From the NCBI GenBank assembly GCA_016124375.1, contig WGNV01000004.1, positions 124,001 through 188,000 of the forward strand: a stretch of DNA of 64,000 nt. The letters run 5' to 3'. A program made the position numbers and the translations under genes. The DNA is from Tepidisphaera sp. (GTDB lineage Bacteria; Planctomycetota; Phycisphaerae; Phycisphaerales; UBA1924). Below, piece by piece: positions 3,376 to 61,834 of this stretch. Each line of letters begins with the position of its first letter. Position 1 is the stretch's first letter. The notes below the pieces were generated by a model. That model had not been told where the DNA came from. It searched no databases and saw nothing but the letters and a program-made list of their open reading frames with translations.

Positions 3376-4749
3376 TCACCTTCCGATCCACGCCGACAGC
3401 TCCGCCCACGCCCCTTCCGGGTAAATCCACGTCACCTTCCCGTCGCTCACCAGCAGCACGGGCTGGTTTCCCTCCTTCAGCGGCACCTGCGCCCGCGACA
3501 GCGTCAACTCCACGCTGGCGTCCTTGCTCGCCCCCAGGCGCAGCGTCGCCGCCTTCTTGACGCCCGAAGGCGTGTCCGTCACCGCCGTCGCCGCGTCGGT
3601 CTCGCAGAGCATCTTGATGAGCCCCGCCACCCCCGCCCCGTCCGTGCTGCTCAGCGGCACATCGCCGCTCTTCCACCCATCAATCCCCCGCGTCGCGCTC
3701 AACGCCCCCGCCGCCTCATCGCCGCGGATCACCGACACATACCGAATGTCCGCCCCCGTCGCATCCATCGCCCGCCGGCTCAGCAGCGAGCCGGGTTTCA
3801 CATCAAACGCCCCCGCGTCCGCGTCGGAGATGATCGCCACACGCGGGCCCCAACTCACGCCCTGCGATTTGTCGCCATCCCGCTCCACCATTCCCCCCAC
3901 CCGCGCATATCGCTGCCCGCTGCCGGCGATCGCCCCAAGTTCCAGCCGCTGAATCACCAGCCATTTCGAAACCTCACCCCCCGGCCCCGCGGCCCGCACC
4001 TCGGTGCTCACGCTCACCGCCGCCTGCGGCTTCGCGAAGCCCATGTCATCACTCGCCGTGCCCCCGAGCCAACGCACGCCTTGAACTTCGCCCCACCTCT
4101 GCACCACGCTTCGGCACGCCGTCGCATCGCAGCGCGCCAGCAGCGGCGACAGCAAACTCCATCTCGTCTGCGTGCGGCTCAACGTCACCTTCGCATCGCT
4201 CACATCCAACTCGACTGCCGACGGCTCCCCAAACCCCATCAGCAGCGTCGGCTCTCCCCACGCCGCCACGCCCTCGGGCTGAAAAATCTTCGCCAAGTCC
4301 GCGTCCGCCAGAATACTCCCGCCCCCCTCCACCACCAGCGGCACCCTTCCACCCAGCGCCGCCCGCCCCACGCGCACCGCGCGCGACGTGCCCGCCTCGT
4401 CGGTGATCACGACATCCGTCGACTCGTTCTTGTCGATCGTCGTCGGCCCCGACGGTCCGCTGGCTTCACCAATGAGCCGCAGCGCCGCCCGCACCCGCGT
4501 CGGCGGCACGGGCCACGCCGGTTCATCCCGCAGCCTCATCAACCATTCGTCCCCGGCTGGCAGGCGCGTGAACTCCGCTTGCCCGCCTTGAGGCCACACC
4601 ACCTTGACCGTCTTCACCAAATCCGGCTGGAGCACGCCAACCCACGCGCGGGCCTCCGTGGGAGCCGCCACCCGCGGCCGCGTGAGCACCCACGTGACCA
4701 ACCCCCCCACCGCCACGAGCACGAGCATGACAAGCGCGAGTTTCTTCAC
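3376..4749 (-). CDS. DUF4340 domain protein, membrane anchored
   Basis: A 457-residue protein starting MKKLALVMLVLVAVGGLVTW, a signal anchor of about 20 residues, followed by an extracytoplasmic region. The layout (anchor, then VKTVKVVWPQGGQAEFTRLPAGDEWLM and repeated blocks of similar beta-rich sequence) fits the DUF4340 family, which in other bacteria often sits beside the gliding/ABC-2 type GldG-like export genes. No such genes are next to it here. Function is unknown. The start is the first ATG after a hairpin repeat at 4778-4800, 29 bases upstream, which may sit in its 5' leader. Confidence 0.72.
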   Translation of the reverse strand: MKKLALVMLVLVAVGGLVTWVLTRPRVAAPTEARAWVGVLQPDLVKTVKVVWPQGGQAEFTRLPAGDEWLMRLRDEPAWPVPPTRVRAALRLIGEASGPSGPTTIDKNESTDVVITDEAGTSRAVRVGRAALGGRVPLVVEGGGSILADADLAKIFQPEGVAAWGEPTLLMGFGEPSAVELDVSDAKVTLSRTQTRWSLLSPLLARCDATACRSVVQRWGEVQGVRWLGGTASDDMGFAKPQAAVSVSTEVRAAGPGGEVSKWLVIQRLELGAIAGSGQRYARVGGMVERDGDKSQGVSWGPRVAIISDADAGAFDVKPGSLLSRRAMDATGADIRYVSVIRGDEAAGALSATRGIDGWKSGDVPLSSTDGAGVAGLIKMLCETDAATAVTDTPSGVKKAATLRLGASKDASVELTLSRAQVPLKEGNQPVLLVSDGKVTWIYPEGAWAELSAWIGR

Positions 4750-4777
4750 GCCACAAAGATACCGCGCTTCTCACGCC

Positions 4778-4800
4778 CGGGATGAGCGAAGCGAATCCCG
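4778..4800 (+). repeat. Hairpin repeat with constant loop, copy 1
   Basis: Stem CGGGA / TCCCG (4778-4782 and 4796-4800) closing the 13-base loop TGAGCGAAGCGAA. Exactly the same loop occurs with different, self-complementary stems at 7751-7777 and, inverted, at 7828-7854. Confidence 0.75.
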
Positions 4801-4824
4801 AGATCGGAGGCCCGACGCAAGAAG

Positions 4825-4868
4825 AATTCACCACAGAGTCACAGAGGCACAGAGAAGAAGAAAACCCG
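4825..4868 (+). repeat. CACAGAG-rich intergenic element
   Basis: A purine-rich stretch built on TTCACCACAGAGTCACAGAG followed by GCACAGAGAAGAAG. Elements with this ACCACAGAG-ACAGAG core are, from memory, frequent between genes in planctomycete, Geobacter and related genomes. Its function is not known to me. It is part of a repeat-dense spacer between the DUF4340 gene and metF. Confidence 0.6.
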
Positions 4869-4962
4869 GAGCAAAGAGAAAGACGAGAGAAGCGGAGACA
4901 GAAAAGCAGTCCAGAGAAGACTCGTCTCGATGCCTCGATGCCGCATCCCTCGATGCCTTCTT

Positions 4963-5003
4963 GAACTTCTTCTCTCCGTCTCTTCGGAACTTCGTCTCTC
5001 TTC
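4963..5003 (+). repeat. 24-base repeat family (GAACTTCGTCTC type), two units
   Basis: Two consecutive units beginning GAACTTC, the first 24 bases long (4963-4986) and ending TCTCTTCG, the second partial and starting GAACTTCGTCTCTC at 4987. The unit recurs at 13338, 14511, 59295 and 62902. Here it abuts the metF stop codon. Confidence 0.75.
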
Positions 5004-5924
5004 CTACTTCCCCACCAAATCGTGCGAATCCCTCACCCCCAGCGTCGAGTAGATATCCCGCGTCGCCGTCGAGCGATTCAGCGTGTAAAAGTGAATCCCC
5101 GCCACGTCATGATCCAGCAAATCGCGGCACTGCTCCGTCGCCCAGTGCACCCCCACCCGCCGCACCGCCGCCTCATCGCCCCCCGTCCGGTTCACCGCCC
5201 GAATGAGCGGCGCCGGAAACCTCGACCCCAGCGACAGCTCCGCCATGCGTCTCATCCCCGCCATCGACGTCAGCGGCATCACCCCCGCGATGATCGGCAC
5301 CTTGATCCCCGCCATCTCGCAGCGCGACCGGAAGTCATAAAAGTCCCGGTTGTCGAAGAACAACTGCGTCACGATGAAATCCGCACCCTCGTCCACCTTC
5401 GCCTTCAGTCGCTCCAGCTCCAGCAGCCGGTTGGGCGTCTCGGCGTGTCCTTCCGGGTAGCCCGCGACGCCGATGCCGAAGCCCCGCCGATCCGGATGCG
5501 TGTGCCGCCCGTTGAAATCTCGAATGCACTTCACCAGCTCGCTGGCGTAGCGAAAGTCCTTCCACGGGTTCTCGCCCGCTGGCAAGTTCTTGGGCACATC
5601 TCCCCGCAGCGCCATGATGTTGCTGATTCCCGCCGCGGCATACCGCTCCAGGATCCCCTCGATCTCGGCTCGCGTGTGCCCCACGCACGTCAAGTGCGGC
5701 ACCGGATCCAAGGGCGTCGTCGTCCGCAGCTTCACTACCAGGTCGTGCGTCTGCTCACGCGTCGAGCCGCCAGCCCCATACGTCACCGACACAAACGCCG
5801 GCTTCAAGGGCTCCAGCTCGCGGATGTTCGCGAACAGCTCCGACACCCCGGTCTCCGCCTTGGGCGGAAAGAACTCGAAGGAGAACGTCGTCGTCCGGAG
5901 TTTGAAAATGTCCGCGATGTGCAC
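5004..5924 (-). CDS. metF: Methylenetetrahydrofolate reductase
   Basis: A 306-residue flavoprotein that reduces 5,10-methylene-THF to 5-methyl-THF for methionine synthesis in the cytoplasm. The start has the typical SFEFFPPK motif (residues about 15-22), followed by FVSVTYGAGGSTRE, the HLTCVGHTRAEI block, NIMALRGDVPK and DFIVTQLFFD, all family hallmarks of the FAD-binding TIM barrel. Length is normal for bacterial MetF (about 290-310). The gene is monocistronic. An 8-bp hairpin lies 18-37 bases upstream of the ATG. I saw no SAM riboswitch in the 150-base leader. Confidence 0.96.
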   Translation of the reverse strand: MHIADIFKLRTTTFSFEFFPPKAETGVSELFANIRELEPLKPAFVSVTYGAGGSTREQTHDLVVKLRTTTPLDPVPHLTCVGHTRAEIEGILERYAAAGISNIMALRGDVPKNLPAGENPWKDFRYASELVKCIRDFNGRHTHPDRRGFGIGVAGYPEGHAETPNRLLELERLKAKVDEGADFIVTQLFFDNRDFYDFRSRCEMAGIKVPIIAGVMPLTSMAGMRRMAELSLGSRFPAPLIRAVNRTGGDEAAVRRVGVHWATEQCRDLLDHDVAGIHFYTLNRSTATRDIYSTLGVRDSHDLVGK

Positions 5925-8868: not shown

Positions 8869-9155
8869 GGCGGGTTTCACACCCGCCCCAAATGATCCCC
8901 GCCCGGGGTTTCTGAGCCTCCTGCCGACATTCTGGATGATTCCTCCGCCCGCACGCCAGGCGTTTCGACGGCTGGTGTTTGACGTGCGGCCGGTCGAGGA
9001 ATCAAGCCCGGTCATCGGGTCGCGTGTGCCGCTCTGAAGCACACGCCCTCCCGCTGACTGAGTCGGTTCAGGTGGGCTCGTTCCAAACGAGTCGCCAGCC
9101 GCGTGTGGAGCCTTCCCCACGGGCCTTGAGTTGTGCCAGCGCACCCTTCGGGTGC
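8869..9155 (+). ncRNA. Multi-hairpin structured leader candidate before the prepilin gene
   Basis: This gene-free 560-base region (8757-9318) holds a series of strong inverted repeats. They are 8869-8887 (GGCGGGT/ACCCGCC), a long nested hairpin 8937-9004 (outer TGATTCCTC/GAGGAATCA, inner CCGCACG/CGTGCGG, tip CCAG/CTGG), 9022-9046 (GCGTGTGC/GCACACGC), 9075-9093 (seven pairs, one wobble) and 9141-9155 (GCACC/GGTGC). A promoter-like TTGACA lies upstream and the prepilin ribosome site downstream. I do not see the conserved cores of RNase P, tmRNA, SRP RNA or a known riboswitch. It could be a cis-regulatory 5' UTR or a separate small RNA. Confidence 0.45.
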
Positions 9156-9318
9156 CCTCGCCACGCTCGACGCCTCGAAGAGGTTCCTCCCGCGAACGGT
9201 GACGCCGCACGGGCGAGCGAGACTTCCGGCCGTCATGGTTTGGATGGCGTTCCTGGCGGGTTTTCAAATATTTGGCATCGCTCGATGCCGCCCCGTCCGG
9301 GAACACAAGGAGACAGCA

Positions 9319-10433: not shown

Positions 10434-10466
10434 GCCCCGCGTCCGCAAGGATGCGGGGCTTTTTTT
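10434..10466 (+). terminator. Rho-independent terminator after the prepilin gene
   Basis: Eleven-pair stem (GCCCCGC then GTCC, one G-U pair) with a GCAA tetraloop, followed by seven T residues. Confidence 0.95.
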
Positions 10467-12323: not shown

Positions 12324-13337
12324 ATGAAGACTCTGGCAATGGTCGCGTCCGGCCCCAAGGCCAAGCTCGAAAAACGCGAGATCGATCTGGGCCCGATCGG
12401 CGACGATCAGGTCGAGATCGCCGTCGAATCCTGCGGCATCTGCCACAGCGATCTCTCGCTGCTCAACAACGATTGGGGCATCACCTCGTACCCGTTCGTG
12501 CCTGGGCACGAGGCGGTGGGCCGCATCGTCGCCGTCGGCGCCCACGTCAAGCACCGCAAGGTCGGCGAGAAGGTGGGCCTGGGGTGGTACAGCGGCTCGT
12601 GCCTGGGTTGCCGCTCGTGCCTGGCGGGAGATCACAACCTGTGCCCGACCGCCGAGCAGACCATCGTCGGACGCCACGGCGCGTTCGCCCAGCGGGTGCG
12701 CACGCACTGGGTGTGGGCCACGCCCCTGCCCAGCGGCATCGATGAAGCCAAAGCCGGCCCGCTCTTCTGCGGCGGCATCACCGTGTTCAACCCGATCGTG
12801 CAGAACAACATCAAGGCGACCGACCGCGTGGGCGTCGTGGGCATCGGCGGCCTCGGGCACCTCGCCCTGCAGTTCCTGAACAAGTGGGGCTGCGAAGTGA
12901 CGGCGTTTACGAGCTCATCCGCCAAAGCCGCCGAGGCCAAGAGCCTGGGGGCGCACGACACCATCAACTCCACGAGCGATGCCGACCTGGCCAAGAACAA
13001 AGGCCGCTTCGACATGGTGCTGGTGACGGCCAACGTCGACCTCAACTGGCCGGCGTACCTCGACACGCTGGCGCCCAAGGGCAAGCTGCACGTGGTCGGG
13101 GCCGTGCCCAACCCCATCGCCCTGCCCGCGTTCCCGATGCTGGTGGGCCAGAAGAGCCTGGGGGGCTCGCCCCTGGGCAGCCCCGGGCTGACGGCGAAAA
13201 TGCTCGAGTTCTGCGGGCGGCACAAGATCGCGCCCGTGACCGAAACGTTCCCCATGAGCAAGGCCAACGAGGCGCTGCATCACCTGGAGAGCGGCAAGGC
13301 GCGGTATCGCATCGTGCTGACCAATGACCTTGGGTAA
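12324..13337 (+). CDS. Zinc-dependent alcohol dehydrogenase
   Basis: A 337-residue medium-chain dehydrogenase, cytoplasmic, using NAD(P). Catalytic zinc ligands are C40 in GICHSD, the GHE at 61-63 and C149 in LFCGGIT; the structural zinc cysteines are C93, C96, C99 and C107; the cofactor loop is GIGGLG at 173-178. It belongs to the same broad YahK/AdhA group as the enzyme at 2251-3303 but is clearly divergent. ACAAGGAG precedes ATG 12324, which is preferred over the longer frame. It sits in the oxidoreductase block, followed by an Old Yellow Enzyme 94 bases later. Confidence 0.93.
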   Translation: MKTLAMVASGPKAKLEKREIDLGPIGDDQVEIAVESCGICHSDLSLLNNDWGITSYPFVPGHEAVGRIVAVGAHVKHRKVGEKVGLGWYSGSCLGCRSCLAGDHNLCPTAEQTIVGRHGAFAQRVRTHWVWATPLPSGIDEAKAGPLFCGGITVFNPIVQNNIKATDRVGVVGIGGLGHLALQFLNKWGCEVTAFTSSSAKAAEAKSLGAHDTINSTSDADLAKNKGRFDMVLVTANVDLNWPAYLDTLAPKGKLHVVGAVPNPIALPAFPMLVGQKSLGGSPLGSPGLTAKMLEFCGRHKIAPVTETFPMSKANEALHHLESGKARYRIVLTNDLG

Positions 13338-22458: not shown

Positions 22459-23979
22459 ATGGCTCAGGGCAACGGCACGACCAACGGCGCGGCGAACACC
22501 CCGAAGCTGACCAACGCGGACGGGGCTCCGCTGGGCACGCAGCAGAGCCTGACCGCCGGCCCTCGCGGCCCGCTGCTGATGCAGGATGTGACGCTGCTGG
22601 AGCAGATGCAGCACTTCAACCGCGAGCGCATCCCCGAGCGCGTGGTGCACGCCAAGGGCTCGGCCGCGTACGGCACGTTCACCGTCACCAACGACATCAC
22701 TAAGTACACCAAGGCGTCGCTGTTCGCCAAGGTGGGCAAGAAGACCGAGGCGTTCCTGCGGTTCTCGACGGTGGCGGGCGAGCGCGGGGCGGCGGACGCG
22801 GAGCGCGACGTGCGCGGGTTCGCGGTGAAGTTCTACACCGACGAAGGCAACTGGGACCTGGTGGGCAACAACACGCCGGTCTTCTTCGTGCGCGATCCGT
22901 ACAAGTTCCAGATGTTCATCCACACGCAGAAGCGCCACCCCGAGACCAACCTGCGGAACATGGACATGCAGTGGGACTTCTGGAGCCAGTGCCCCGAGTC
23001 GCTGCATCAGGTGACGATCCTGTTTTCGGATCGCGGGATTCCGGCCAGCTACCGGCACCTCAACGGCTACGGAAGCCACACCTATTCGTTTATCAATGCG
23101 GGCGGCGAGCGGGTGTGGTGCAAGTTCCATTTCAAGACGATGCAGGGGATCAAAAACTGGATGGATGATGAGGGGGCGGGGAAGATCGCCGCGGATCGTG
23201 AGACGCACCAGCGCGATTTGTTCGAGTCGATCGCCAAGGGCGACTTCCCCAAGTGGCGGATGTGCGTGCAGATCATGACGCAGGGGCAGGCGGATGCGTT
23301 CCGCTGGAATCCGTTTGACCTGACCAAGGTGTGGCCCCACGGGGCGTTCCCGCTGATCGAGGTGGGCGTGCTGGAGCTCAACCGGAACCCGGCGAACTAC
23401 TTCGCCGAGGTGGAGCAGGCGGCGTTCAACCCCAGCGCGCTGGTGCCGGGCATCGGCCCCAGCCCCGACAAGATGCTGCAGGCGCGGCTCATGAGCTACC
23501 AGGACACACACCTGCACCGCCTGGGCGTCAACTACCGGCAGATCCCGGTGAACAAGCCCCGCTGCCCGGTGATGAACTACATGCGCGACGGGGCGATGAC
23601 CGACGGCTCGTACGGCAGCGCGCCGAACTACTTCCCCAACACCGTGCCGGGCGCACCCAAGCCCGCGGCCCAGTTCGATGAGCCCGCGTGGAACCTGGGC
23701 CAGGCGATCGTGGCACGGTACGACTCGACGATCGATCACGACGACTACACCCAGGTGGCGAACCTGTACAAGCTCTTTGACGAAGGCCATCGCGAGCGCC
23801 TCACCAAGCGCATCGCGGGCGTCCTGGGCCAGGCGCGGATCGAGGTTCAGCACCGCCAGTTGTGCCACTTTTTCCGGGCGGATGCGGATTACGGGCAGCG
23901 GGTGGCCAAGCACCTGGGCGTGGACATCGAGGCGGCGATGAAGGCGGCGCCCCGGGCCGAGCATGCGGGAACGATGTGA
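22459..23979 (+). CDS. Heme catalase
   Basis: A 506-residue monofunctional heme catalase that disproportionates hydrogen peroxide. Distal His64 (RVVHAKGSAAYG), Asn137 in VGNNTPVFF and the proximal heme ligand Tyr347 in RLMSYQDTHLHRLG are present, as are DVRGFAVKFYT and the SHTYSFINAGGERVWCKFHFK block. Length fits the small-subunit clade (about 480-510). TTGGAGG precedes ATG 22459. The stop overlaps the GTG of a small lipoprotein gene (ATGTGA), implying translational coupling. Regulation by a peroxide- or metal-sensing repressor is suggested by the palindrome upstream. Confidence 0.97.
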   Translation: MAQGNGTTNGAANTPKLTNADGAPLGTQQSLTAGPRGPLLMQDVTLLEQMQHFNRERIPERVVHAKGSAAYGTFTVTNDITKYTKASLFAKVGKKTEAFLRFSTVAGERGAADAERDVRGFAVKFYTDEGNWDLVGNNTPVFFVRDPYKFQMFIHTQKRHPETNLRNMDMQWDFWSQCPESLHQVTILFSDRGIPASYRHLNGYGSHTYSFINAGGERVWCKFHFKTMQGIKNWMDDEGAGKIAADRETHQRDLFESIAKGDFPKWRMCVQIMTQGQADAFRWNPFDLTKVWPHGAFPLIEVGVLELNRNPANYFAEVEQAAFNPSALVPGIGPSPDKMLQARLMSYQDTHLHRLGVNYRQIPVNKPRCPVMNYMRDGAMTDGSYGSAPNYFPNTVPGAPKPAAQFDEPAWNLGQAIVARYDSTIDHDDYTQVANLYKLFDEGHRERLTKRIAGVLGQARIEVQHRQLCHFFRADADYGQRVAKHLGVDIEAAMKAAPRAEHAGTM

Positions 23980-24305
23980 AACGCCTCGTGACAGCCGCTG
24001 TGGCCCTCGGAGTGCTCGTGTCGGGCCTGATGGTCGCGGGCTGCGCTGCGGCACCGAGAGACTACCGGGCCGAACTGGATCGTTTGGACGCGGAGCGCGA
24101 CGCCCAGATCGCGGCGCTGGGCGAGAAGCGGGACGCCGAGATCAAACGCTGTGCGCACGAGCCCGACGCCGAGCGCTGCAGCAAGCGAGCTTGGGACCGC
24201 TATTTCGCCAGCGTGCAGGAGACGCGGACGGAACATCTGGCCGCGGTGCAACGAGTGTGGGACGGGCTGCCACCAAAAGAACCGTCGTCGGACACGATCC
24301 GCTGA
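23976..24305 (+). CDS. Small coiled-coil lipoprotein coupled to catalase
   Basis: A 109-residue predicted lipoprotein starting at GTG 23976, four bases inside the catalase stop. The signal peptide ends in the lipobox VAGC (Cys23). The mature part is a charged, heptad-like helix (ELDRLDAERDAQIAALGEKR) with a pair of cysteines (KRCAHEPDAERCSK) and a C-terminal basic/aromatic segment. No family recognised. The overlap means it is translated with catalase; why an envelope lipoprotein should accompany a cytoplasmic catalase is unclear. Confidence 0.72.
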   Translation: MKRLVTAAVALGVLVSGLMVAGCAAAPRDYRAELDRLDAERDAQIAALGEKRDAEIKRCAHEPDAERCSKRAWDRYFASVQETRTEHLAAVQRVWDGLPPKEPSSDTIR

Positions 24306-24315
24306 AAATCAGCGC

Positions 24316-24528
24316 GTGGGGGGAGCATCCGGACCCCGGCCCGGTCCGGCCTTGTGCTCCCGCCCACTACAAAACCCCTTGAGCTCCGCAAACACAAGAG
24401 CTCACAGGGAGCGCCGGAACAACCCCCACGGCAGAACCGGCTTCCTGTGATCGCGGCCAGGGGTAGGCCGCGACGTTCGATGGGGCGCCAAACGCTGGTC
24501 GGCGCCGCTCGCGGCCCAGAACGGGGCC
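24316..24528 (+). ncRNA. Compact multi-stem structured region between catalase operon and pcrA
   Basis: The 420-base gap 24306-24724 has no gene but at least six strong stems in 213 bases. They are 24316-24367 (GTGGG+GGGAGCA with TGCTCCC+CCCAC, one bulge, capped by CCGGACC/GGTCCGG), 24380-24404 (TGAGCTC/GAGCTCA), 24402-24450 (TCACAGG/CCTGTGA enclosing GCCGG/CCGGC), 24451-24473 (TCGCGGCC/GGCCGCGA), 24484-24506 (GGCGCC/GGCGCC) and 24513-24528 (GGCCC/GGGCC). The second and third stems share bases 24402-24404. I could not match it to RNase P, tmRNA, 6S, SRP RNA or a known riboswitch. Strand is assumed plus, towards pcrA. Confidence 0.45.
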
Positions 24529-24724
24529 ACGGTGAGTCTTACCCGGACAAGGGTATCAAGTTTCGCCGAAAATACAACGTTTTGCTGACGATGTTTGCCA
24601 ACGCCGGGATTTGTACGCCTTCGAAGTATTTCCCACCCTCGACGGGGCGAACCGGGGCTTTGCTGGGCCAGCGCGGGGTAATCATCAAGGGAGCTTTTCG
24701 AGGCATTGCCTACGCTGCCACGGC

Positions 24725-27289
24725 ATGGAGGCGACGCCCGAAAACCTGGAAAATCCCCAGGGTTCGCGATCGTGGATCGCGGCCCGCGCGGGGGCGGATG
24801 ACGCGCTGGTGCGTGACCTGACCGGGCCGCAGCGCGAGGCGGTGCTGTGCACGCAGGGGCCGCTGCTGGTGCTGGCGGCGGCGGGGTCGGGCAAGACCCG
24901 CGTCATCACGCGGCGGATCGCACACCTGCTCGCGACGGGCGTGAAGCCCTGGCAGATTCTGGCGCTGACGTTTACGAACAAAGCCGCGGGTGAGATGCGG
25001 GAGCGCATCGGCAAGTTGCTGGAGGAGACGGCGGGCGGGGGCGGAGCGGTGCGCGGGCTGACGGTGACGACGTTTCACTCGCTGTGCGCACGCCTGCTGC
25101 GGAAGTACGCCGAGGCGGCGGGGCTGAAGCCTGATTTCACGATCTACGACAGCGACGACCAGAGCAAGCTGTGCAAGAAGGTGATCGAGCAGTTGCAGCT
25201 CAGCACGGCGAACTTTCCGCCGCGGAGCGTGCTGAGCGCGGTGAGCCGCGCGAAGAACGAACTGATGGACGCTGAGAGCTTCGCCGCGAGAGCGACGGAC
25301 TTTTCGAGCAAGAACATCGCGCGGGTGTATAAGGCGTACAGCGCGGCATTGCGGGCGGCCAACGCGGTGGACTTTGATGATCTGCTTTTGCTCACGGCCC
25401 GCACGCTGGAGCGGAACGCGCAGGTGCGGGGGGAGTGTCAGGCGAGGTGGCGGTATTTGCTCGTGGACGAGTATCAGGACACGAACCGGGCGCAGTTTTT
25501 GATCGCGGCGATGATCGCGGGGGACGGGGAGAGGGCGAGTGGTGGTGAGTTGCCGGCGAGTTCGCTGCCTGGGGTGGAGGATGAAGAAGAAGGGGAGGGC
25601 ACAGGCGGGACGCCCGTGCCACGAGATGGGATAGGGAAGAAAGTCGGCCCGAACATCTGCGTGGTGGGCGATCCGGATCAGGCGATTTATGGCTGGCGCG
25701 GGGCGGACATTTCGAACATCCTGGACTTTGAGCGCAGTTACCCCGGTTGCCGGGTGATCACGCTGGGGGAGAACTTCCGCAGCACGGCGCCGATTTTGGA
25801 GGCGGCGGACACGCTGATCCGGCACAACAAGCGGCGCAAGCACAAGGATTTGTTTACGAGCCGCAAGGGCGGCGAGAAGCCCGAGGCGATTCTCACGAGC
25901 AACGAGAAGGCCGAGGCGCGGGTGGTGGCGGACTGGCTCAAGGCGCGGCACGAAGCCGGCGCGGCGTGGCGCGACATGGCGATTTTTTACCGCACCAACT
26001 CGCTGTCGCGGGTGATGGAGGAATCACTGCGGGCGTTCAATGTGCCGTACAGCATCGCGCGGGGCACGGCGTTTTACGATCGCGAAGAGGTGCGCAGCGC
26101 GCTGGCGTACTTAAGAATCGTGGCCAACCCGGCGGACGGGGTATCGCTTTCACGGATCATCAACGTGCCGGCGCGGGGGATCTCCAAGGCGACGCAGGAC
26201 GTGCTGGAAGCGTTTGCCGAGCGTGACGAGATGCCCTTGATGGAGGCGTGCCGCGGGGCGGGGGGCGTGGCGGAACTGAACGCGCGGGCGCAGGCGGCGG
26301 TGGCGAAGTTCGTCGCGATGGTCGACGCGTGGACGGGCGGGGGCACGTTCATGGGTTCGGACATCTCCGGCTCGCTGGCCGACCTGGTGGACCGGATCAT
26401 TCGGGAGAGCGGGCTGCGGGCGATGTATGTGGCGCAGGCCAACACCAGCAAGAGCGAGACCGACGCCGAGCGCGTGGACAACCTGGACGAACTGGTCAGC
26501 AGCGCCCGGCAGTTTGAGCAGGAGTACGACGCCGCGGCGGACGCGGCCAACGACCCGCTGGCCGCGGATGGGCTGGTCGAGACTCCCCCACTGCTGGCGA
26601 TGCTGCGGGCGTACCTGGAATCGATCGCGCTGGTGGCCGACGCCGACAGCGTGGACCCGACGCAGGGCAGCGTGACGCTGATGACGCTGCACGCGGCCAA
26701 GGGGCTGGAGTTTGATTCGGTCGCGATGATCGGCATGGAAGAGGGGCTGCTGCCGCATAGTCGGGCGATCAGCATGCCCGTGGCGGGCGACGCGGAGCTG
26801 GAGGAGGAACGCCGCCTGTGTTTCGTGGGCATCACGCGTGCCATGCGACGGCTGTTGATGACGAGCGCCAAATATCGCACCATCCGCGGCGTACCGGAAC
26901 GCACCATTCCCAGCCGGTTTCTCGGAGAGATTCCCGAGCGAGGGCTGATCGTCAGCGATCAGTCCGAGACGTTCGCCGAGGACTATGACGCGCCGGCAGG
27001 CGGCTGGGGCGTCGACACCGGGCGCTATTCGCCGCCCCGCGGCGGGGGTTTCAGTGCCGTCTCGCCTTCGAGCGGCGCGTCGTCTGGCAGCGGGTCGTCA
27101 AGCGGCGCATCGCGCGGCCCCGCCGGCGAGTTCCCGGTCGGCTCCAAGGTGCGACACCCGCAGTTCGGCCTGGGCATCGTCGAATCCATCAGCGGCGGGC
27201 CATCGCCCCGCGCGGTGATCAAGTTCAAGGACGTGGGCAGCAAAACCATGGTCCTGGAATACGCCCGGCTGGTCCGCGTCCAGGGATAG
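24725..27289 (+). CDS. pcrA: ATP-dependent DNA helicase PcrA/UvrD
   Basis: An 854-residue superfamily 1A 3'-5' helicase for DNA repair and replication restart. Motifs in order are Q-motif LTGPQREAV (32-40), Walker A AAAGSGKT (51-58), LALTFTNKAAGEM, TTFHSL, Walker B VDEYQDTN (247-254), VVGDPDQAIYGWRGA (313-327), LGENFRST, MTLHAAKGLEFD, and the final FVGITRAMRRL. The last 70 residues carry a Ser/Gly linker and the Tudor-like RNAP-binding end KVRHPQFGLGIVESI. Between Walker B and motif III, residues about 268-307 are an unusual acidic/Gly insertion partly encoded by a palindromic repeat. ATG 24725 is the first Met after non-coding sequence. Confidence 0.95.
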   Translation: MEATPENLENPQGSRSWIAARAGADDALVRDLTGPQREAVLCTQGPLLVLAAAGSGKTRVITRRIAHLLATGVKPWQILALTFTNKAAGEMRERIGKLLEETAGGGGAVRGLTVTTFHSLCARLLRKYAEAAGLKPDFTIYDSDDQSKLCKKVIEQLQLSTANFPPRSVLSAVSRAKNELMDAESFAARATDFSSKNIARVYKAYSAALRAANAVDFDDLLLLTARTLERNAQVRGECQARWRYLLVDEYQDTNRAQFLIAAMIAGDGERASGGELPASSLPGVEDEEEGEGTGGTPVPRDGIGKKVGPNICVVGDPDQAIYGWRGADISNILDFERSYPGCRVITLGENFRSTAPILEAADTLIRHNKRRKHKDLFTSRKGGEKPEAILTSNEKAEARVVADWLKARHEAGAAWRDMAIFYRTNSLSRVMEESLRAFNVPYSIARGTAFYDREEVRSALAYLRIVANPADGVSLSRIINVPARGISKATQDVLEAFAERDEMPLMEACRGAGGVAELNARAQAAVAKFVAMVDAWTGGGTFMGSDISGSLADLVDRIIRESGLRAMYVAQANTSKSETDAERVDNLDELVSSARQFEQEYDAAADAANDPLAADGLVETPPLLAMLRAYLESIALVADADSVDPTQGSVTLMTLHAAKGLEFDSVAMIGMEEGLLPHSRAISMPVAGDAELEEERRLCFVGITRAMRRLLMTSAKYRTIRGVPERTIPSRFLGEIPERGLIVSDQSETFAEDYDAPAGGWGVDTGRYSPPRGGGFSAVSPSSGASSGSGSSSGASRGPAGEFPVGSKVRHPQFGLGIVESISGGPSPRAVIKFKDVGSKTMVLEYARLVRVQG
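25598..25620 (+). repeat. Palindromic repeat inside the helicase coding sequence
   Basis: GGCAC-A-GGCG / CGCC-C-GTGCC around a GGA loop (5 bp, one mismatch, 4 bp). Read in frame it encodes GTGGTPVP. Sequences of this GGCACAGGCGGGACGCCCGT type are, from memory, common intergenic palindromes in planctomycete genomes. Here it lies inside a gene without breaking the frame. Confidence 0.7.
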
Positions 27290-27336
27290 TCGATTCGCAG
27301 CGCCCGCGAAGCCATGCCTCTTCGGGGATTGGCGGC

Positions 27337-27365
27337 TTGACCCTTCCTGTTGTACCTACAACAAT
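27337..27365 (+). promoter_or_regulatory. Promoter overlapped by a MarR-type operator
   Basis: TTGACC (27337-27342), 17 bases, AACAAT (27360-27365). Inside lies the perfect palindrome TGTTGTA-CC-TACAACA (27348-27363), covering the spacer and -10. A repressor bound there would block the polymerase. Transcription would begin at or next to ATG 27371, so the mRNA may be leaderless. Confidence 0.75.
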
Positions 27366-27370
27366 GCGGC

Positions 27371-27820
27371 ATGAAGCACGCCACAGCAGCCATCGAGGAG
27401 ATCGCGGACGGTTGCATCGCCTTCCGGGCCCGGATCCTGGGTCGGGCGATCAGCGCGATCTACGACCGGACCATGGGGCCTTGCGGGATGAGCATCGCGC
27501 AGGTGAACATCTTGGTGTTTGTGGGGAAGGTGGGCGAGGTGTCGCCAGCATTGATCGGCGAGAAGATGGCGATGGAGAAGTCGACGGTGAGCCGCAACCT
27601 GCGGGGGCTGATCGACGACGGGCTGCTGGATGCGGACACCAGCGACGCTCAGCGGGTGCGGGGCGTTCGCCTGTCGGCCAAGGGGCGGCGCCGGGTCGAA
27701 GCGGTGCTGCCGGAGTGGCGCAGAGCCCAGCGTGAGGCGCTGGAGCTGCTGGGGTCGGGCGGATCGGCGGCCATCAAGAGCCTGGGCGACAAACTCCTGC
27801 ACACCTCGGCCTCGGTGTGA
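27371..27820 (+). CDS. MarR family transcriptional regulator
   Basis: A 149-residue winged-helix repressor. The order CIAFRARILGRAISAIYD (15-32), CGMSIAQVNILVFVG, the recognition helix KSTVSRNLRGLID and the wing DTSDAQRVRGVRLSAKG is typical of MarR. A cysteine sits at residue 15, the position of the peroxide-sensing Cys in OhrR, and the next gene is Ohr. The same Cys also occurs in other MarR subgroups, so an OhrR identity is only possible. A palindromic operator overlaps its own promoter, so autorepression is likely. No ribosome site precedes ATG 27371. Confidence 0.9.
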   Translation: MKHATAAIEEIADGCIAFRARILGRAISAIYDRTMGPCGMSIAQVNILVFVGKVGEVSPALIGEKMAMEKSTVSRNLRGLIDDGLLDADTSDAQRVRGVRLSAKGRRRVEAVLPEWRRAQREALELLGSGGSAAIKSLGDKLLHTSASV

Positions 27821-28051
27821 ATCCCCGGCCAGCGTTCGCCAGCTCACGCACGCGTACAGGCGCGAGCATCAACGTCAAGCCCGGCCAGCACGGGCAGGCG
27901 GAGATGGTTGAGTACGCCGCGGGGCGGGCGTGGAGCAGGCATCTGCCGCGCGAGTGATCACGGGCCCGGCTGCTGCACAGCGGGGGCCGCGGCTATCGCC
28001 CATGTCCAAGGGCGCGAGGCTGCTGGGGCCGTTCGGAAAGTGCTTCCCGAG

Positions 28052-28477
28052 TTAGTCCACGAGCGTCGTCGTCACCGGCACGTTGTTGCGGATGGCGTAC
28101 GAATACGGGCACACCTTGTGGGCGGCTTCGATCAGCGCCTGGCCGTCGGCCTTCGAGACGCCGGGCAGGCGCACGCGCATCGCGACCTCGAGTTCGAAGC
28201 CGCTGCCGTCGTCGCGCTGACCGACGGTCACATCGGCCGTGACTTCAACGGTCTCGATGTGCTTCTTTTGGAGTTTCGCGACATAGTCGAGGGCGCTGCC
28301 GTAGCACGCCGCGTAGCCGCTGGCGAAGAGGTGTTCGGGCGTCGTGGTGTTGGGCTTGCCGGGGCCGCCCATCGCCTTGGGCACGGAGAGATCGACTGAC
28401 ACGGAGTTGTCGCTGGCCTGAGCGTGACCATTGCGGCCCCCGGCGGCGGTAGAGGTGGCGGTGAAGAGCTTTTTCAT
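28052..28477 (-). CDS. ohr: Organic hydroperoxide resistance protein Ohr (OsmC family)
   Basis: A 141-residue thiol peroxidase that reduces organic hydroperoxides in the cytoplasm. The start KKLFTATSTAAGGRNGHA with Arg15, PEHLFASGYAACYGSALD with the peroxidatic Cys58, and HKVCPYSYAIRNN with the resolving Cys123 are the Ohr signature (as opposed to OsmC). AAGGA precedes ATG 28477. It faces the MarR gene convergently with 230 bases between. I did not find a copy of the MarR palindrome in its short upstream region. Confidence 0.96.
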   Translation of the reverse strand: MKKLFTATSTAAGGRNGHAQASDNSVSVDLSVPKAMGGPGKPNTTTPEHLFASGYAACYGSALDYVAKLQKKHIETVEVTADVTVGQRDDGSGFELEVAMRVRLPGVSKADGQALIEAAHKVCPYSYAIRNNVPVTTTLVD

Positions 28478-28567
28478 GCAGGTGTCCTTTCGGAGCGGGG
28501 TGGGTGGCGGCGAGATGCGACGCGAGAAGGCAGCATAGTTCGACAAGAGTGATGCGGCTCGGGCGAC

Positions 28568-44554: not shown

Positions 44555-44626
44555 AGCGGGCGACGGGGGTCGAACCCGCGACCTACGCGTTGGGAACGCG
44601 TCGCTCTACCACTGAGCTACGCCCGC
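44555..44626 (-). tRNA. tRNA-Gly (anticodon CCC)
   Basis: On the minus strand the acceptor GCGGGCG pairs with CGCCCGC, the D arm is GTAGCTCAGTGGTAGAGC, the anticodon stem ACGCG/CGCGT closes a TTCCCAA loop (CCC anticodon, decodes GGG), and the T arm has GCGGGTTCGACCCCCGT. The discriminator is T. CCA is not encoded. Confidence 0.96.
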
Positions 44627-46617: not shown

Positions 46618-47235
46618 CTAGTACCCGGCCTTCAGCTCGCGCATCGCCCCGGGCTTGTTCTTGATCAGCCCGAACCACACCATCAGAAACAGCGGCCAAG
46701 GCAACCCCAGCACCACCGCCACGCCCAGCCCGATGTAGATCCCCGCCGTGCCGCCCTTCGCAAACGGGCTCGATTGGTTCGCCGCGATCCACGCCTCCAT
46801 CGCCTTCGCATCCCCGAACTGCACCCACAACTGCAGCAGCAGCACCAGCAAACCCCCAAACGCCCACACCAGGTGCGCCAGCCGCCCCACATCCCTGCGA
46901 CCCACCGTCGTGATCCCCGCGAACAGCAGCAGCCCCGACATGCAGAAGCCCAGCGTAAAGAGCAGGATCTTCAGCGGGCCCATCACCATCGTCGGGGGCA
47001 TGTTGTTGGGGTCAAAGCCCGGCGCGTTCGCCATCAGAATCGGCGTCGCCACCAACCCGATCACCCCGCACACCCCGCCCAGCAACCCCAGCGAGCCCCA
47101 CACGATCGACAAAATCCCCACCACCTTGGGCCACCCCACCGGCTCGCCCAACTGCACATCCCCCAGCACATCCGCATCCGTCGGCGGCGTCGCGCCCCCG
47201 GCCATCGCCATCGGTTGCTGCTCGTGTTCGGTCAT
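46618..47235 (-). CDS. Four-helix membrane protein, unknown
   Basis: A 205-residue protein from ATG 47235, which has a strong GGGAGGGG ribosome site. It has a charged N-terminus and four membrane helices (about 36-65 VVGILSIVWGSLGLLGGVCGVIGLVA, 85-108 ILLFTLGFCMSGLLLFAGITTV, 117-135 VWAFGGLLVLLLQLWV, 163-190 IYIGLGVAVVLGLPWPLFLMVWFGLI). No motif recognised. It lies between pheS and the TMTC-like gene on the same strand but with its own ribosome site. Confidence 0.75.
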   Translation of the reverse strand: MTEHEQQPMAMAGGATPPTDADVLGDVQLGEPVGWPKVVGILSIVWGSLGLLGGVCGVIGLVATPILMANAPGFDPNNMPPTMVMGPLKILLFTLGFCMSGLLLFAGITTVGRRDVGRLAHLVWAFGGLLVLLLQLWVQFGDAKAMEAWIAANQSSPFAKGGTAGIYIGLGVAVVLGLPWPLFLMVWFGLIKNKPGAMRELKAGY

Positions 47236-59294: not shown

Positions 59295-59433
59295 GAACTT
59301 CGTCTCTCCGTCTCTCCGGAACTTCGTCTCTCCGTCTCTCCGGAACTTCGTCTCTCCGTCTCTCCGGAACTTCGTCTCTCCGTCTCTCCGGAACTTCGTC
59401 TCTTCTTCCCTCCGGAACTTCGTCTCTTCCCCC
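59295..59433 (+). repeat. Tandem array of the 24-base GAACTTCGTCTC repeat
   Basis: Four units of 24 bases (59295-59318, 59319-59342, 59343-59366, 59367-59390), a fifth diverged (59391-59414) and a partial sixth. Each starts GAACTTCGTCTCTCC and continues GTCTCTCCG. The 24-base period keeps frames open on both strands: SPELRLSV repeats on plus, DGETKFRR on minus. It fills the space between two convergent genes. No spacers, so not a CRISPR array. Confidence 0.95.
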
Positions 59434-59434
59434 C

Positions 59435-61834
59435 TCACGCCTTGTCCAGCGCGATGTCCAACTCCACCACCGCCGGCTCCAGGCACTCCGTGTCGCTGCA
59501 CGCCTGGTACGCCACGCTCAAAATCGGCGTGCCCTTCCACGCCCCGTCGCGCTCCATCGCCACTCGCAGCTCGATCGTGCCGGTGTTCACCTTGATGCGT
59601 TGCTCGCCTTCGCCAAAGTCCTCGCCCGCCGGGTAATCCGCGTACACCTTCACGCCCTGGCCATGCACCACGTCGATCCGCAAAGGCCTCATCGCCCTGG
59701 CCACGGCTGTCTCCCCCGGCTCCGCCGCCACGATGTGCCACCCCTCCGCCACCTTGATCACAACGCCCATCTCGACCGGCTCCAAGGGACGCAGCGCCAC
59801 GCGATCGACCGCCGCGTAAATCTCCACGACGCCCATCGCCGCCGGGTGCTGCCGCTGCGCGGGCACCGCCCGCGCCGTGTGCACTTCCGCCGCGCTCGAG
59901 GGCCGCATCGCCCCCGGGCCGCTCTCCGCATCCAGCAACATCCGCAGCAGCGCCCGCACGCTGGCCGCACACCCCACGGGCGAACTGCTCACGTGCCCGC
60001 TGATCGCATCGATCGCCCGCCGCGCCGCCTCGCGATACCGCTCGCCCCGCGCCGCATCCCCCGCTTCCTCCACCAGTTCCGCCCCATCCAGCAGCGCGTG
60101 CAGCATCATCGCCGTGCCGCTGGGCATCGCCCCGTCGTGCGTGCTGCGGGCCCGCACAAACAAGTCCGTGGCCCCCTCGCGCGTGTCGAACAACCCGCCC
60201 GCCTCGTCGGCGAACAGCGTGAGGCCCCGCTCCAGCATCGCCGCCCCCTGTGACACTCGCTTCGCCCGCGCCGCGCCCTCTTCACATCGCGCGATCTCAA
60301 ACAACCCCAGCGCCACGCTCGCGTAATCCTCGAGAAACCCCGGCGTGTGCGCCTTCCCATCTCGCCACGCCCGCATCAGCTCGCCCTTCGGTTCCACCAT
60401 CGCGCCCAGCAACCAATCCGCCGCCCGCCTCGCCGCGGCGACCATCGCCCCATCCTCCAGCGCCCGCCCCGCGCTCGCCAGCGCCCCGATCATCATGCCG
60501 TTCCACGCGGCGATCACCTTGTCATCGCGCCGTGGCTGCGCCCGCCCGTTCCGCGCCTCCAGCAGCGCCGCGTTCAGCCTCGTCAGCTTCTCCACCAGCG
60601 CCGCAGGCGACGTCTGAAACCCCGCCGCGATCGCCTCCATCCGCCCGCTCAGCCTCAGCACGTTGCTCGCTTCGCCCGGGTGATGCGGGTCGCGAAAGTT
60701 CGGCCCTCCATCCAGCCCATACACCTTCGTCGCAAACTCCAGCGCGTCCAGCGCCGCCTGCCTCGTGCCTTCAAACTCCAGCACCGCCGCGGGCGCAAGA
60801 GCCTCCCTCAGCGACTCAACCGTCCACACGTAGTTCGCGCCCTCTTTCCCATCCACCTCCGCATCCTGCGCGCTGTAAAAGCCGCCCCCCGGCGACGTCA
60901 TCTCGCGCGACACATACGCAAAGACCTCACGCGCCGCCCGCGCGTATTCGCTGTCGCCGTCCCTCCTCGCCGCCCGCGCAAACACCTCCAGCAACTGCGC
61001 CTGGTCATACAGCATCTTCTCAAAATGCGGCACCGTCCACGTCGCATCCACCGCATACCGATGAAACCCGCCCCCCACATGATCGCGAATCCCCCCGATC
61101 ATGATCTGGTTCAGCGTCGTCCGCAGCGCAATATCAATCGCGTCCGCCGTCGAGTCGTCCGCCGCCCGCTCCCGCACCTCCTGCAGCAGCCGGATCAGCG
61201 AGCACTGCGGAAACTTCGGCGCCGCCCCAAAGCCCCCGTTCGCCCGATCAAACATCCGCAGCACGCCCGCCACAGCGTCCGCCACCTGGCTCTGGCCCAG
61301 TTCCTGCCCGGGCGTCGCCGTCGCCAAATGGTCCGCCACACCGAGCGCCAACTGCTCGGCCTGCCTCACCACCCCCTCGCGCTGATCGCGCCACGCGTTC
61401 CGCATCGCCTCCAGCACCTTCGGAAACGTCGGCACGCCGGGCCTTGGCTCCAGCGGGTAATACGTCCCGCAAAAGAACGGCTTCAGCGACTTTGGCTCCA
61501 CAAACACCGACATGGGCCACCCCCCGTGCCCATTCATCAGCACCGTCGCCGCCATGTACAACTCATCCACATCTGGCCGCTCCTCGCGGTCCACCTTCAC
61601 GCACACGAACCCCTCGTTCATCTGCGCCGCCACCTGTTCATTCTCAAAGCTCTCCCGCTCCATCACGTGGCACCAATAGCACGTCGAATACCCGATCGAC
61701 ACGAACAGCGGCACATCCCGCCGCCGCGCCTCCTCAATCGCCCCCTCACCCCAAGGCCACCAATCCACCGGGTTGTGCGCATGCTGCAGCAAGTACGGAC
61801 TCGTCGACGCCGCCAGCCGATTGGTGTGTGCCAT
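59435..61834 (-). CDS. DUF255 thioredoxin-like/six-hairpin protein fused to a DsbD-like N-domain
   Basis: A 799-residue protein. Residues 1-165 are the DUF255 thioredoxin-like domain ([17 protein letters not shown]52-Y-W-C55-[14 protein letters not shown]). About 200-640 form a six-hairpin (alpha/alpha barrel) domain as in the YyaL/SSP411 family, with [32 protein letters not shown] and [11 protein letters not shown]. The last 110 residues are extra: HIVAAEPGE, ...[16 protein letters not shown]..., resembling the N-terminal DsbD domain with C-x4-C. YyaL-type proteins are of uncertain function; the extra domain suggests a redox partner. It is adjacent to the repeat array. Confidence 0.9.

Follow-up and report, generated by a model that had tools for sequence, protein, structure and literature searches.

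A probable structured RNA preceding pcrA in two related Planctomycetes genomes

Does the gene-free DNA in front of the helicase gene pcrA of a Tepidisphaera genome encode a structured RNA, and would such an RNA control pcrA or act on its own? In the window, by which we mean the whole stretch of 64,000 nucleotides that was analysed, a small lipoprotein-like open reading frame, whose stop codon ends at 24305, is followed after 419 bases (24306-24724) by the ATG of pcrA at 24725, and these borders bear out the gene-free gap described in the original prediction, which had been made from the sequence of the window.

Extent and conservation of the element

The window's own genome (G000) was compared with a second genome of the genus (G003), whose contig JAKFUN010000128.1 (L053) has the same order of katA, lipoprotein gene, element, pcrA and a MarR-like gene. 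The genes of G003 were named by similarity, by eye or by alignment to the window genes, except for the lipoprotein gene and two minus-strand open reading frames. Identity between the two genomes is 455 of 504 residues for the katA protein and 719 of 844 for PcrA, and the lipoprotein-like frame that sits between these well-kept genes is itself weakly kept (31 of 107 residues). About 2 kb with the two extra minus-strand frames is inserted between the lipoprotein gene and the element in G003; these frames (L053 2547-4486; 267 and 388 amino acids) have no Pfam match, and the segment is absent from the window at this place. In the window, genes for catalase, PcrA, a MarR regulator and an OsmC-like protein are grouped around the RNA (22459-28546), possibly as a peroxide-stress cluster.

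The blastn match between the window and G003 spans 24311-24476 at 78% identity with gaps (E 5.4e-36, and 2.2e-36 in a search of 163 genomes of the family). When 24311-24473 was aligned to L053 4606-4789, 139 of 162 aligned bases were identical (86%, against 46% with a standard deviation of 4% in a shuffled control), whereas the 251 bases from there to pcrA (24474-24724) agreed at 93 of 205 aligned bases (45%), the level of their shuffles (43%, standard deviation 4%). Because the identity of the core exceeds both that of the adjoining spacer and that of fourfold sites at which the first two codon bases agree (243/391 or 62% in pcrA, 146/220 or 66% in katA), the core is probably held by selection. 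Its 3' border is sharp, at about 24476. On the 5' side different DNA adjoins the two copies, the window having the end of the lipoprotein gene and G003 the extra segment, and the limit of conservation there therefore coincides with a breakpoint. The two copies of the core differ by gaps of a single base, which argues against a coding role. The candidate that had been drawn over the whole gap thus survives in a smaller form, ending far short of pcrA (Table 1).

The similarity might also come from shared ancestry with little constraint, that is, from a GC-rich palindromic stretch that is yet to diverge, and the restriction to two related genomes, together with the little covariation that two sequences give, would fit this. 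However, the adjoining spacer has fallen to shuffle level and the lipoprotein has diverged widely, yet the core has kept 139 of 162 bases, and we regard this explanation as very improbable.

Folding energy was less telling. The whole region 24306-24724 folds with a z-score of -2.47 on the plus strand (equalled by 0 of 100 shuffles) and -2.46 on the minus strand (by 1 of 100), the core 24309-24478 with -3.40 (0 of 200) or, in a separate run of 60 shuffles, -2.84 on plus and -2.88 on minus, and the G003 copy with -4.48 (0 of 200). When the window was tiled by 752 tiles of 170 nt, with a first pass of 12 shuffles and refolding of the 24 best, the tile at 24311 ranked 7th on the plus and 11th on the minus strand, in the top 1-2% on both strands. 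The fold is better than chance and not extraordinary, and energy alone is only suggestive: it does not pick out the region, because other tiles rank higher and both strands score. It is identity, the conservation in G003, that singles the region out. Tiles that were better than the element in that run (z -3.2 to -3.6) lie at 9011-9180 on the plus strand and at 26861-27030, 46921-47090, 59331-59500 and 12411-12580 on the minus strand. The best-folding tile of the window contains a strong intrinsic terminator at 10434-10466 (GCCCCGC...GCGGGGC, then seven T), which stands after an open reading frame with, by eye, a pseudopilin-like start.

Table 1. Coordinates in the window of the putative RNA element, its predicted parts and its neighbours
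Feature	Position	Strand	Observation
Small lipoprotein-like open reading frame	23976..24305	+	Start picked by eye; no Pfam match; upstream of the element
Conserved, probably structured core (whole predicted RNA element)	24311..24476	+	blastn match to G003
Predicted hairpin H1, 20 pairs	24316..24367	+	All pairs intact; a double change (G-C/A-U) and two wobble changes
Predicted single-stranded joint	24368..24381	+	UACAAAACCC, 10/10 identical in G003
Predicted hairpin H2	24382..24402	+	Loop CGCAAACACAA, 11/11 identical; A-U/G-C double change of the closing pair
Predicted hairpin H3	24403..24449	+	Loop stretch CAACCCCCACGGC, 13/13 identical in G003
Predicted hairpin H4	24450..24474	+	Loop AGGGGUA, in G003 AAGGGUG; outermost pair A-U in G003 but A-C in the window; not followed by a U run
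Unconserved spacer to pcrA, with predicted stems 5 and 6	24477..24724	+	Identity at shuffle level
pcrA (UvrD/PcrA helicase)	24725..27286	+	Pfam UvrD-helicase, 1.2e-83; next gene downstream in both genomes

Hairpins, pairing and strand

The two copies fold independently into four common hairpins. All six inverted repeats behind the six consecutive stems of the original prediction are present (24318-24364, 24329-24349, 24375-24409, 24402-24450, 24451-24473 and 24484-24506); the first two, which had been taken as separate stems, together form the one interrupted hairpin H1, and stems 5 and 6 were dropped from the element, as the spacer is unconserved. The original prediction had proposed an alignment with related Phycisphaerae, in which pairing is indeed kept with compensatory changes, in a single relative (G003) and hence between two sequences. 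In the hand alignment, which was verified against the two sequences, 45 pairs are shared, of which one is broken in the window (the outermost of H4) and two carry compensatory double changes, in H1 and H2. The paired columns hold eight substitutions, and four pairs differ on one side, namely two of H1, one of H3 and the end pair of H4. G003 lacks both partners of one A-U pair in H3 of the window, the window leaves one C-G pair in H3 of G003 unpaired, and five pairs of a second H2 copy in G003 have no counterpart. In a simulation of eight random substitutions on the shared pairs, no more than one broken pair combined with two or more double changes arose with p between 1.2e-4 and 2.4e-3, depending on transition bias; this is supportive and not proof, as there are two sequences, the structure was derived from them and the alignment was made by hand. 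In the automatic alignment, four shared pairs (three in H3, one in H4) are non-standard in the window, those in H3 because this hairpin was misplaced by one base; its register was set by hand. Two sequences are in any case thin evidence and give no proper covariation statistic.

Paired columns are identical at 83 of 91 positions and unpaired columns at 63 of 75 in the hand alignment of the two copies, and since both are kept, stems and loops both appear to be constrained. At most, pairing goes with a slight gain in conservation, and this counts against the explanation that we prefer below. G003 has a tandem duplication of H2, the second copy having its own five-pair stem and the loop CGAGAACACAA. 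Because this copy keeps 9 of 11 loop bases while its stem is changed, the H2 loop may be the working part. As for the strand, four G-U pairs (two in H1 and two in H3) would be mismatches if read on the minus strand, so the wobble pairs favour the plus strand; the end pair of H4 points to the minus strand instead. We consider it highly probable that a constrained structured element exists here.

Two further contacts were seen by eye. The original prediction had suggested a pseudoknot between loop 3 and the outer G run of stem 1, and both copies have GUGGG/CCCAC unchanged, but in G003 an A breaks the G run; this pseudoknot is possible, although it would need the base of the long first hairpin to be opened, and invariance provides no covariation signal. 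A putative contact of loop 3 with loop 4 (ACCCC/GGGGU), with four of five pairs kept in G003, is equally unproven.

Distribution among genomes

Among the 163 genomes of the family, the DNA search reached E 0.001 or better in G000, G003 (the second of the E-values given above) and a third genome (G088, 4.5e-4), whose match we discarded as chance, since its 24 bases fall within reading frames of DNA that is unrelated. A covariance model with 51 pairs (R1) was built from the two copies, so the 191.8 bits of the window against it are a self-match. R1 was run on overlapping samples from the family (163 genomes), the order (400), the phylum (392) and the relatives (41), and it scored the best 15 candidates per genome in the family, 6 in the order and phylum, and up to 62 in the 41 relatives; because only these best first-look candidates were scored, diverged relatives may be missed. 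Convincing matches in these samples came from G000 and G003 only, with one strong match per genome; G003 is not among the matches of the phylum sample, presumably because it was not drawn into it. The next-best matches (E 0.007 and 0.014 per genome) are at chance level over 163 genomes. The weak family matches, in five other genomes and at another site of G003, have rough E-values between 0.007 and 0.84 per genome, with about one at 0.007 expected by chance over the 163 genomes; they were rejected, as were three more places in the 41 relatives (E 0.25 to 0.62). In the two best weak matches, read by eye, neither invariant string was seen.

R1 was also scanned against 55 sources, namely the window and 54 loci around pcrA genes: 21 of 65 (the 20 listed as best and L112; Phycisphaerae or close Planctomycetota), 28 of 30 (the others being G000 and G003) and 5 of 10, with some genomes represented twice. 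Only the window and the G003 contig matched, besides a 10.6-bit match to the opposite strand of that same contig. The five other members of the genus have no R1 match and a different gene order: another gene ends 55-108 bases 5' of pcrA (start codons picked by eye), which in one of them (L043) is by eye amino-acid transporter-like with a UspA-like end and has a similar C terminus in the other four. The loop motif CGNRAACACAAG was followed as well, and it occurs at six sites in G000 and G003, three of them inside the RNA, against seven for the reversed control (2 against 5 in G000, 4 against 2 in G003). Two of the three sites outside the RNA were refolded and neither forms such a hairpin, and the third is on the reverse strand of L158; the motif was discarded.

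The narrow distribution, the sharp 3' border and the GC-rich palindromes would also suit an element that works at the DNA level, such as a cluster of binding sites or the remnant of a mobile element, and merely resembles RNA. Against this, G000 and G003 have one strong match each, plasmid and phage records have none, and R1 gave no match in the seven viral contigs (three and four) with exact matches of 16-17 bases. Moreover, wobble pairs that work on one strand and a pair that was lost on both sides fit an RNA, and we think a DNA-level element unlikely. The element is probably a real but rare structured RNA of about 165 bases, found in two related, poorly known Planctomycetes bacteria.

Possible function and comparison with known RNAs

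Our preferred explanation is that 24311-24476 on the plus strand encodes a discrete structured RNA with four hairpins and invariant single-stranded stretches, which would be separate or processed and act through its loops; we give this a probability of roughly one half. The RNA may be made as a small RNA of its own or cut from a longer transcript, and its conserved A- and C-rich loops could be offered to a protein or to other RNAs. Upstream of either copy, no sigma-70-like promoter was found on the plus strand by a scan that is blind to other promoter types. Candidate mRNA targets of the C-rich loop were also sought: matches to the complement of the H3 loop are fewer than those to the reversed control sequence (17 against 26 in G000, 14 against 25 in G003), and among the sites compared by blastn (16 of 17 in G000, 14 of 14 in G003) only the RNA locus itself is common to both genomes, so that no target was proposed.

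An element that processes, stabilises or terminates the katA-lipoprotein transcript at its 3' end would agree with the position of H1, which begins 10 bases after the lipoprotein stop in the window, and with a strong GC hairpin. In G003, however, the minus-strand frames part the element from the lipoprotein gene by about 2 kb, which indicates that it does not need this gene in front of it, and termination does not need invariant loops. An intrinsic terminator, a GC hairpin followed by a U run, was ruled out, since no U run follows H4; the scan of the window at 24100-24800 and of L053 at 4350-5080 gave no terminator-like site on the plus strand and one on the minus strand, at 24300-24279, outside the element. 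A role at the 3' end of that transcript is therefore improbable in our view.

A cis-acting leader in the 5' untranslated region of pcrA, controlling its transcription or translation via a protein, an RNA or a metabolite, has more in its favour, as the orientation and the next gene are the same in both genomes, the link to pcrA is kept in G003 while that to the lipoprotein gene is broken, and the five other genus members lack both the R1 match and this gene order. On the other hand, the stretch of roughly 210-250 bases that leads from the element to the start codon differs in length and is at shuffle level, and pcrA is, to our knowledge, not among the usual riboswitch targets. The original prediction had further noted that stems 2 and 3 share bases 24402-24404 and could alternate as a switch. 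The overlap is real in the window; in G003 the second H2 copy lies between H2 and H3, so that these bases are not common to two stems, and with the overlap unconserved the switch was abandoned. Conserved mutually exclusive pairing was thus absent, and so was an expression platform among those checked (plus-strand terminator-like sites and conserved sequence between element and pcrA). Judging from the two copies, the element does not resemble a pcrA switch operated by a ligand, and a pcrA leader in the broader sense seems possible but doubtful. A separate or processed RNA fits better because of the sharp 3' end, the missing U run, the lack of a conserved link to the pcrA start and the invariant loops. 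We thus interpret the element as a structured RNA specific to its lineage, and favour a separate small RNA over a pcrA riboswitch. We also speculate, as a rather unlikely extension, that it represents an RNA class confined to one lineage of Phycisphaerales, with a long clamp hairpin, repeatable loop modules (CGNRAACACAA) and a C-rich loop, and tied to the PcrA gene or to neighbouring stress genes (catalase, MarR regulator). The stems found by eye have now become a bounded, testable element (24311-24476, plus strand), for which there is a relative as well as a structure model. Confirmation would give the Phycisphaerae a further structured RNA, and the narrow range of the element limits its wider importance.

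No family of Rfam 15 (4227 families; gathering cut-offs, and permissive scans of both copies) reaches its cut-off for the element in the window or in G003, and the only match in the window at gathering thresholds is a tRNA at 44555-44626. The permissive scans gave two hits below cut-off for the window, the best a group II fragment on the minus strand (E 0.86), and four for G003, the best the Caulobacter small RNA CC1840 (22.6 bits against a cut-off of 50, E 0.67), which is absent from the window list; these hits are at chance level and differ between the copies. The description as an unassigned multi-stem RNA candidate of no known family consequently stands, with a relative that keeps both sequence and pairing.

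T-box leaders have the core AGGGUGGnACCGCG, with a UGGN bulge, and H4 of G003 reads AAGGGUGGGCCGCGA, which is near this core. However, the window loop AGGGGUAGG loses the UGGN bulge, no T-box family of Rfam matches, no terminator was seen, and pcrA is not an aminoacylation gene; with the bulge present in the G003 letters only, we ruled out a T-box leader. There is also a class of small RNAs whose C-rich loops pair with Shine-Dalgarno regions, and the invariant CAACCCCCACGGC stretch of H3 resembles these loops. The element differs from them in having no excess of complementary sites, of which none is shared beyond the RNA itself, and the similarity to CC1840 is at chance level.

In the part of the literature covered, at the level of titles and abstracts, no structured RNA was described before pcrA or in Phycisphaerae. 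Comparative genomics has given structured RNA candidates in bacteria (Weinberg et al. 2010, PMC2864571); in the part of its table covered here, the one Planctomycetes candidate is Rhodopirellula-1, which carries no Rfam number. Such candidates resemble the element in being conserved, structured and intergenic RNAs of unknown function that are sometimes confined to one lineage.
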